A stretch of 64,000 bases of DNA from Mesorhizobium shangrilense (GTDB lineage: Bacteria; Pseudomonadota; Alphaproteobacteria; Rhizobiales; Rhizobiaceae). A model generated the notes under the pieces. The model made no database searches. It saw nothing but the letters and a program-made list of their open reading frames with translations, and was not told the origin of the DNA. The stretch spans positions 5,022,001-5,086,000 of the forward strand of contig NZ_JBEWSZ010000001.1 of assembly GCF_040537815.1 (NCBI RefSeq), written 5' to 3'. Position numbers and translations under genes: made by a program. Positions 9,427-52,396 of this stretch are shown here, in pieces; the first letter of the stretch is position 1; each line of letters starts with the position of its first letter.

Positions 9427-9477
9427 CCTTCTCCCCGTTTACGGGGAGAAGGTGCCGGCAGGCGGATGAGGGGCAGC
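9427..9477. repeat. dispersed palindromic repeat, reference copy
   Basis: CCTTCTCCCCGT at 9427-9438 and ACGGGGAGAAGG at 9441-9452 form a 12-bp perfect inverted repeat with a 2-base loop. It is followed by TGCCGGCAGGCGGATGAGGG. The 34 bases at 9441-9474 match 51775-51808 inside ftsY exactly. The copy lies between asd and a GNAT gene and could fold as an RNA hairpin or terminator for asd. Confidence 0.8.
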
Positions 9478-46564: not shown

Positions 46565-46735
46565 CTCCCTCATCCGGCCGCACGCGGCCACCTTCTCCCC
46601 GGCGGGGAGAAGAGAAGCGGAAGCGCCAAACTGCTCCTCTCCCCTTGGGGAGATGCCGGATTGCCCCGAATTGCTCTTGCAATTCGGTTTGGCAATCCGG
46701 GTGAGGGGGCTGCGCCCCGCTGTTGCGAAGGTCGA
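46565..46735. repeat. dispersed palindromic repeat cluster after ccmG
   Basis: Three hairpins stand in series. CTTCTCCCC at 46592-46600 pairs with GGGGAGAAG at 46604-46612. A second C-rich/G-rich hairpin is near 46638-46652. CCGGATTGCC at 46657-46666 pairs with GGCAATCCGG at 46691-46700, with an inner GAATTGC/GCAATTC pair. The first hairpin belongs to the same family as the copies at 9427 and 51757. No gene lies here. Confidence 0.75.
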
Positions 46736-50464: not shown

Positions 50465-52396
50465 TTAGGCCACTCCAGCGATCGCCCGGGCGAATTCGCT
50501 TGCCGAGAAAGGTTCGAGGTCGTCGACCTGTTCGCCGACGCCGATGAAATAAACCGGCAATTTGTGCTTTGCCGCGATCGCCACCAAGATACCGCCGCGC
50601 GCCGTGCCGTCCAGCTTGGTCATCACCAGGCCATTGACGCCGGCGACATTGCGGAAGATCTCGACCTGGTTCAGCGCGTTCTGGCCGGTGGTAGCGTCGA
50701 CCGTCTGCAGCACGGTGTGCGGCGCTTCCGGATCGAGCTTGCCCAGCACGCGGACGATCTTTTCGAGTTCCGCCATCAGTTCGACCTTGTTCTGCAGCCG
50801 GCCGGCGGTGTCGATGATCAGCACGTCGGAGCCCGCCTGTTTGGCCTTCTCGAAGGCGTCGTAGGCAAGGCCGGCCGCATCGGCACCGAGCTTGGAGGAG
50901 ATGACGGGCGATTTCGTCCGCTCGCCCCAGATCTTCAGCTGCTCGATCGCGGCAGCACGGAACGTGTCGCCGGCCGCCAGCATCACCGACAGGCCGCCAT
51001 CGGTGAGCTTCGCCGCCAGCTTGCCGATGGTTGTTGTCTTGCCGGTGCCGTTGACGCCGACGACAAGGATGACATGCGGCTTGTGGTTGAGGTCGAGCTC
51101 CAGCGGCCTGGCGACAGGGGTCAGGACCTTCTCGACCTCGGCGGCCATGATGGCGCGCACTTCCGTATCGGAGACATCCTTGCCGTAGCGGCTGGCGGCC
51201 AGCGCATCGGTGACGCGCAATGCGGTCTCCATGCCGAGGTCGGCGCGGATCAGCACATCCTCCAGATCCTGCAATGTCTCTTCGTCGAGCTTTCGCTTGG
51301 TGAAGACGCCGGCGATGTTGCCGGTGAGCTCGCGCGACGAACGGGCAAGTCCGTCCTTCATGCGCTGGAACCACGAGCGCCTCGGCGCCGGCTCCGGGGC
51401 CTTCTGCACCTCGGCCTTCTGCTCGACCTTCTTGGTGACGGTCACCTTGCCCGGAGCGGGCTTTGGCTCGGGCAGGGGTTGCGGGGCTGGTGGCGTGACC
51501 GGCTGCGGCTCGGGTGCGACCTCGGCAATGATGGGCTGTGCTTCGACGGGCGCCGGCTGGCGAAGGGGGGGCGCGATTTCCGCCGATGGCGCCGGAATCG
51601 TTGGCGCGGCTTCGTCGGTTGGCGCAAGGTCATTCGCAGGCTGGCGCTGCCCCTCACCCTTACCCTCTGCCCGTGAAGTACGGGGCGAGGCGGGCATCAG
51701 CGCCGAGGCTTCTTCTTCAACATTTGCAGGAGGGGCACTGGCGTCACGATCAGCGCCCTTCTCCCCGTCCCTATACGGGGAGAAGGTGCCGGCAGGCGGA
51801 TGAGGGGCGGCGCTGACATCCAAGGGAAGTCTGGCGGACGGGATCGCCGACGGCGTCTCGACTGGCGTCGGCACTTCCACGGGCGCAGGCTCTGGCTGTC
51901 TCCCCGGTACAGGCACGACTTCAGGCTGTTCTGGCGTCGGAATTTCCGGTGGCGCAGGTTCCGGAACGCGTTCCGGAACGACCGGCACCTCGGGCGTTTC
52001 TTGCGGGGCCGGCTGTTCAGCGGGTATTTCGGGAGCCTGTGGCTCCCGGGCGGGCTCGACCGGTCGCGGCTCCTCGGCCGGTACAGGCTCAGGCTGGATC
52101 TCGGGCTCGGACGGAACCGTAGGCTCCGGGGCTGGCGGGACGGTTGGAATGGGCTCGGGAACCGGTTCCTCGACAGGCGCCGGTTCCGGCTGAGGCGGCT
52201 CGGCCGGAACTGTCGGCACAATTTCCGCCTGCGGCTCGTCGCGCTTCAAGAATTCCGGAACGACCTGTTCGGCCGCCGGCTTCAGCGCATCCAGCTGATC
52301 CCATTTGATCGGTGGCAGCGGCGCGGTCTCGTCGATCCGCTCTTCGACAATCTCTTTCTTGCCGAACGAAAATATCTTCTTGAAAAAACCAGCCAT
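50465..52396 (-). CDS. ftsY: signal recognition particle receptor FtsY
   Basis: A 643-aa receptor, long for the family. The N terminus [20 protein letters not shown] is followed by a roughly 330-residue Pro/Glu-rich acidic region with repeated PEP/PVPE units, expected to bind membranes or be flexible. The NG domain begins near residue 345 and carries Walker [10 protein letters not shown] near 449, then [12 protein letters not shown] and [12 protein letters not shown]. Within the acidic region, residues 196-214 ([20 protein letters not shown]) are an in-frame palindromic repeat, and residues about 231-253 carry a second one. It follows mtaB after 13 bases and pairs with Ffh at 15851. Confidence 0.95.
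51640..51708. repeat. second repeat-like element inside ftsY
   Basis: Within codons for about residues 231-253 of FtsY the plus strand has GCCCCTCACCCTTACCCTCT and then a CCCGT/ACGGG hairpin at about 51667-51680. It resembles the same class of C-rich/G-rich intergenic repeat as the unit at 51757-51808, but is a more diverged copy. It is read through in frame ([20 protein letters not shown]). Confidence 0.55.
51757..51808. repeat. dispersed palindromic repeat inserted in the ftsY coding region
   Basis: CCTTCTCCCCGT at 51757-51768 pairs with ACGGGGAGAAGG at 51775-51786, followed by TGCCGGCAGGCGGATGAGGG. The 34 bases at 51775-51808 match the intergenic copy 9441-9474 exactly. In ftsY it is read in frame as [17 protein letters not shown] within the acidic, variable region. 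Confidence 0.85.

Follow-up and report, generated by a model that had tools for sequence, protein, structure and literature searches.

The ftsY gene of a genome whose nearest named relatives are Mesorhizobium (G000; 8.35 Mb in 49 contigs) carries, read in frame within its linker, a composite RIME1-like palindromic repeat. The conserved half of this repeat, consisting of the palindromic arms and a tail, is held at the nucleotide level and not at the peptide level. Its distribution among relatives fits one early insertion in ftsY that was inherited vertically and lost repeatedly. A single early insertion, vertical descent, losses and nucleotide-level constraint together form the best explanation, which we consider reasonably probable. 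The window referred to below is the whole stretch of DNA that was analysed, 64,000 nucleotides. The following features were placed in it:

50465 to 52396, minus strand: ftsY, 643 aa, from its translation; short N-terminus, Pro/Glu-rich linker, SRP54_N and GTPase domain.

51644 to 51813, no strand assigned: composite palindromic repeat (RIME1-like) of two inverted halves, from its inverted ends and alignment with 14 other copies of the genome.

51644 to 51690, no strand assigned: diverged other half, like halves elsewhere in the genome, encoding about 16 residues on the minus strand.

51757 to 51813, no strand assigned: conserved half-element, a 12-bp hairpin plus the tail TGCCGGCAGGCGGATGAGGGGC, encoding a 17-residue peptide on the minus strand; E 2.4e-19 to a half-element model whose 29 training rows include this half itself.

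51757 to 51786, no strand assigned: perfect 12-bp palindrome with a loop of 6.

9427 to 9477, no strand assigned: intergenic half-element copy, the site with which the original prediction compared ftsY.

46567 to 46613, minus strand: weak, degenerate half-element match (E 7.5e-4) that may be due to chance.

The coding direction of ftsY runs from window position 52396 down to 50465. Pfam places SRP54_N at residues 357–415 and SRP54 at residues 440–639 (E 2.3e-71), and the composite, about 170 bp, is read in frame in the linker as some 57 residues (about 195–251). The protein had been called unusually long, for which the element offers a partial explanation only: among 115 FtsYs with a recognised start the median length is 625 aa with the element and 589 aa without it. 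No Rfam family matched up to E 1 within window positions 51500–52000.

At the two window sites the identity is complete over 34 of 34 positions (9441–9474 and 51775–51808), as originally reported. Both sites possess perfect 12-bp arms (CCTTCTCCCCGT and ACGGGGAGAAGG) enclosing a loop of 6 nt in ftsY and 2 nt at 9427, which agrees with the claim of a palindromic arm kept with a changed loop. Within the window the 31-nt core is present at two places. Coincidence or low complexity is rejected, since the core was found in none of 100 shuffles and a reversed control gave no places in the genome. The segment first described, 51757–51808, encodes 17 residues and reaches one base into the codon that follows (residues 197–214, minus strand). 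It is real but covers only a piece of one half, as the composite reaches back to 51644. The 16-nt ends of the composite, GCGCTGCCCCTCACCC and GGATGAGGGGCGGCGC, are 88% complementary. The diverged half resembles halves elsewhere in the genome, one example being a 92% match over query positions 45–103 at G000:C2:463259. The site at 9427–9477 is also old: the orthologous spacer of some relatives (L284–L306) contains other palindrome subtypes with differing tail lengths.

The repeat is dispersed through the genome. The search for the core that had been proposed gave 29 places at no more than 3 mismatches, 18 of them exact. Elsewhere in the genome the half-element is often doubled and inverted. Among the fetched loci, 34 are unique; they span 177–183 bp in 17 cases and 127 bp in three, and at the threshold used eight show one half only, the ftsY locus being one of these eight. 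The core was matched in 137 of 146 genus genomes (reversed control 0), and the half-element is present on 228 of 72,556 plasmid records, of which 107 are from Rhizobium and 81 from Sinorhizobium. Copies in other coding regions had also been suggested as worth looking for, and here the outcome was negative: none of the other 33 loci has a long spanning ORF with a Pfam match. When long spanning ORFs were defined as at least 200 aa with at least 50 residues on each side of the repeat, ftsY is the sole locus of the 34 in G000 where such an ORF has recognisable domains. Pfam gave no match for the seven other spanning ORFs, found at six of the 34 loci.

Relatives were compared using one genome per species, with ftsY rows from 144 of the 146 genus genomes (G078 and G097, without a good ftsY match, were left out). 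A model of the full element matches 77 of the 144 rows, and 70 of the matches are among the 115 FtsYs with a recognised start. Because the remaining 45 of these 115 are without the element, any function that it has is dispensable. Strand and frame are identical in all 75 matching rows with a readable frame, and the remaining two are on the same strand. Within a clade of 128 rows the element is scattered over 75, of which the 73 with a readable frame all share one strand and frame. The 29 halves in the genome, that of ftsY included, are open in four of six frames in 28 cases and in five in one case, so the shared strand and frame tell against independent insertions. The residues preceding the element are also alike among 73 rows (P in 58 at −8, S in 53 at −6, E in 59 at −5). 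The claim of a dispersed palindromic repeat read in frame within ftsY is thus borne out by the places of the core in the genome and by the strand and frame shared among relatives. The original prediction was to count as refuted if relatives showed the same sequence with no counterpart repeat elsewhere. The first part of this is what we find; the second is not, as counterparts occur in 137 of the 146 genomes. A recent insertion is rejected by the shared frame, strand and flanks and by the diverged sequence beside the element. In the basal rows L187 and L261 a related but different version of the palindrome, PHPLPDLLPA, was seen in the same linker frame.

The coding copy allows the conservation of the repeat to be measured against its own surroundings. 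Mean synonymous diversity inside the core is 0.034 (73 rows, omitting L151, L184, L187 and L261; 15 columns) versus 0.429 for the seven codons that precede the element. For the comparison with the GTPase domain, as for the loop, per-site and motif figures, 66 of the 77 rows were used, the other 11 not fitting the protein pattern. In these 66 rows the core has a value of 0.035 versus 0.235 for matched GTPase-domain residues, and none of 20,000 draws was as low. The lowest 16-codon window in the GTPase domain is at 0.088, so that none reaches the core value; the native linker motifs are at 0.253 and 0.383 and the conserved N-terminus at 0.121. Detection by the protein motif alone added no row to those found by the DNA model, and therefore the low synonymous value is not an artefact of detection. 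The exact 31-base core is found in 48 of the 73 rows.

Conservation differs between the parts of the element. With three further degraded rows (L158, L169, L185) omitted from the per-site and pairing figures, differences per site are 0.014 in the tail, 0.029 in the stem, 0.146 in the loop and 0.316 past the half, on its far side. Variation is low to a similar degree at all three codon positions, with 0.012, 0.009 and 0.020 in the tail and 0.038, 0.022 and 0.028 in the stem, which means that the DNA is held rather than the peptide. Of 756 stem cells 714 pair as in the consensus, and the others comprise 30 broken, 10 one-sided and 2 compensatory cells. With 2 compensatory cells to set against 30 broken ones, selection acting solely on hairpin pairing is not a favoured explanation. 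Within the small hairpin of the tail, L161 and L200 have changes on both sides of a pair, and L219 on one side only.

The main rival to nucleotide-level constraint is ectopic gene conversion, in which dispersed copies repeatedly overwrite the ftsY copy and so keep it at the family consensus. We regard this as unlikely. It would account for the coincidence of the conserved stretch with the repeat (0.034 inside, 0.429 before), and two ftsY copies, L161 and L200, bear other dispersed subtypes. Overwriting by dispersed copies predicts that ftsY loops match the genomic pool. The loop of the G000 ftsY copy (CCT) does recur at the fetched loci, where 5 of 43 other copies have it. However, the ftsY loop is found in no other listed copy of G004 (21 places), G014 (40) or G017 (14), genomes that were picked for rare ftsY loops and are the three of ten that were fully listed, with only intact-arm copies visible. 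The AGG loop is present in 23 of 66 ftsY rows versus 4 of 72 dispersed copies of these three genomes (p 1.2e-5 by Fisher's test, which ignores relatedness). Of the two deviating subtypes, that of L161 was found in G047 at no more than one mismatch only at ftsY itself, and that of L200 has one other place in G013, with one mismatch.

The states of the ftsY copies along the tree also argue against conversion. The element's edge codon in ftsY is GCC in 42 and GCT in 23 of 73 rows, and the same two letters vary in the dispersed copies, as conversion would have it. Yet these edge states follow the tree, with 11 changes versus 19.3 after shuffling (lowest 13), and so do the loop states AGG and AGT, with 9 changes versus 14.0 (the lowest of 200 shuffles having 8).

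Genomic copy number counts in favour of conversion and of the preferred explanation alike. Retention of the element in ftsY follows the number of other copies, being 2/16, 17/31 and 22/33 in the first three of five rising bins that start at 0–6, then 22/25 with 21–35 other copies and 12/15 with 36 or more (120 rows, with 16 basal and 8 short rows omitted). In G132, whose assembly is 93% complete and 8% contaminated, no genomic place exists at 3 mismatches or fewer, and the element in ftsY is degraded (11 mismatches of 48). In independent pairs the association has the same direction (3.4 versus 0.4 of 8) and is not significant (median p 0.25), and the association with copy number is partly phylogenetic. 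How far the ftsY copy has decayed is hardly predicted by copy number (rho −0.16, p 0.18; −0.18, p 0.14).

Repeated independent insertion at one spot by site-specific homing is improbable. It would be in line with the patchy presence of the element on a tree of the GTPase domain, where at least 29 changes are needed when 10 short rows (<470 aa) are omitted from the count. With all 144 rows there are 33 changes, 13 of them forced by starred branches; this tree was built quickly, and many of its branches are weak. The single strand and frame in 75 of 75 rows and the similar flanks speak against homing, as do two of the four near-relative pairs that were aligned, in which absence leaves part of the element or takes away more than the element. 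In L191, sister of L144 (support 99), only the far end of the element is left, and in L215, beside L154 (support 83), more than the element is missing. In the other two pairs the region is replaced by a second palindromic family or is too diverged to place the break. L259 (G099), one of the short rows counted as lacking the element, has its FtsY start, together with both repeat families, in a different frame from the GTPase domain; since the element sits upstream of the frame break, its absence from this row is artefactual. Some of the other short rows may conceal the same situation. The break in L259 lies at or just after the second-family repeat and could be a sequencing error or a real change.

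Selection on the 19-residue peptide of the element is more improbable still. Where present the peptide is well conserved, but synonymous and non-synonymous sites are frozen to about the same degree, and the comparison of codon positions largely refutes this option. Codons seldom used in the GTPase domain are retained as well: CCT accounts for 54 of 689 Pro codons in that domain, and at the first Pro of the core for 63 of 64. Finally, a recent passage of a single ftsY allele from species to species through recombination would explain both low diversity and a patchy tree, but is the least credible of the alternatives, as in the same rows synonymous diversity is 0.429 before the element and 0.18–0.69 in the codons after the conserved half.

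In view of the above, the history can be pictured along the lines of an early insertion with constraint on the nucleotide sequence. Early in the history of the core Mesorhizobium lineage, a RIME1-like composite would have entered the ftsY linker a single time, in a stop-free frame. It would then have become ordinary coding sequence and been passed on vertically. In-frame deletions would later have shortened or removed it on many occasions. Strand, frame, flanks and scars strongly imply this course of events. As the cause that preserves the conserved half we favour a constraint on the DNA or RNA sequence, for example by a putative factor that recognises the arms and the tail and that would also act on the dispersed copies. 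The loop drifts freely, as does the sequence outside the element. A more specific proposal, which we put forward tentatively and hold to be less probable than the general account, is that the ftsY copy was domesticated, within the essential gene of the SRP receptor, to serve as a nucleic-acid element. Selection would preserve its sequence as DNA or mRNA, recognised by a putative trans-acting factor shared with dozens of dispersed copies, with the peptide as a by-product; where the family dies out, the coding copy would decay and be deleted.

The linker is occupied by more than one kind of palindrome. By DNA search, 56 of the 144 rows have in the FtsY linker a repeat of a second family of palindromes, whose reading is PHPPLDGEGRR...RAALGTSPIEGEV; it is on the same strand in all 56, and 30 of these rows also carry the first element. 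It is seen in the linkers of, for example, L191, L202, L220 and L249, in the last apparently twice. DNA of this family gave 21 matches in G042 besides ftsY, on both strands and at 71–90% identity with some places counted twice, as well as 1 match in G000 and 3 in G089. In a basal relative, L278 (G011), a third and different palindromic stretch was noticed in frame at FtsY residues 226–274. The original prediction likened the repeat to mobile palindromes and suggested that the linker may be a landing site. The label of landing site is fair, because the second family occupies the same linker, but a recent insertion is not supported. Synonymous diversity is low in the second family too (0.073–0.108), and such low values may be general to repeats of this kind.

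Rhizobial genomes contain dozens of palindromic repeats of unknown function (PMC2573895). A coding copy is a rare yardstick for them, as synonymous and non-synonymous sites can be compared inside the repeat and just outside it. In ftsY this comparison shows that the nucleotide sequence as such is being maintained, and the pattern does not resemble plain copying between repeats. The question whether such repeats are bound or used, or are merely selfish, thereby becomes testable in one well-behaved gene. In-gene palindromes have precedents in Rickettsia and, in the form of REPs, in several other bacteria. The one in ftsY is an addition of unusual age, shared widely within a clade of 128 rows. 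Searches of an open-access library showed no account of palindromic repeats within rhizobial ftsY.

Comparison with known repeat systems places the element closest to the rhizobial mosaic elements. Osteras, Stanley and Finan are said to have described RIME1 in 1995 as a Rhizobium-specific intergenic mosaic element with two large palindromes. Its published length is reportedly 108 bp and its type locus chvI-chvG. The ftsY composite likewise has two large palindromes in one element, and the same layout is found in a copy on pSymB of Sinorhizobium meliloti (L345) and in a copy of Rhizobium etli (L346). A dispersal over the Rhizobiaceae is also shared, with 137 of 146 genus genomes and plasmids chiefly of Rhizobium and Sinorhizobium. 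There are two differences. RIME1 is known as intergenic whereas the ftsY copy is coding, and the ftsY element is longer, at about 170 bp, with 17 of the 34 loci of the genome at 177–183 bp and 3 at 127 bp. No element was found at 30 examined chvG loci (of 118 matching). By layout and distribution the ftsY repeat is probably a member of the RIME1 family. RIMEs are annotated intergenic repeats in the S. meliloti genome (PMC2573895).

Two other groups share properties with the element. REPs are described within ORFs of several species, including about the same recB site in two Xanthomonas species; these in-gene REPs are GTAG- or CGTC-tagged units of 20–40 bp, often near RAYT genes (PMC3733652). 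The location of a palindrome inside an ORF is common to both, but the ftsY element is a longer composite. Bacterial MITEs are, like this element, small and non-autonomous with inverted ends (PMC2229807), the terminal inverted repeats being represented here by the 88% complementary 16-nt ends. No target duplication was evident in the alignments of copies and relatives, whose flanks are diverged.

The likeness to Rickettsia that had been suggested at the outset holds as an analogy. Rickettsia palindromic elements (RPE) are about 100–150 bp long and lie in frame within conserved protein genes whose products tolerate them (PMC10969869, PMC2229807). The ftsY repeat is likewise a palindromic repeat in frame inside a conserved protein gene and tolerated by its product. 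However, the host lineage is another one, Mesorhizobium by nearest relatives. Rickettsia elements occupy many genes (PMC10969869), and where an RPE would be expected in frame in many unrelated genes of one genome, ftsY is alone among 34 loci as a clear coding copy, one that is old and common to many species. Passages on RPE in PMC10969869 and PMC2229807 make no mention of freezing at the nucleotide level. The ftsY element thus looks like a repeat that works in the manner of a Rickettsia coding palindrome without being one.
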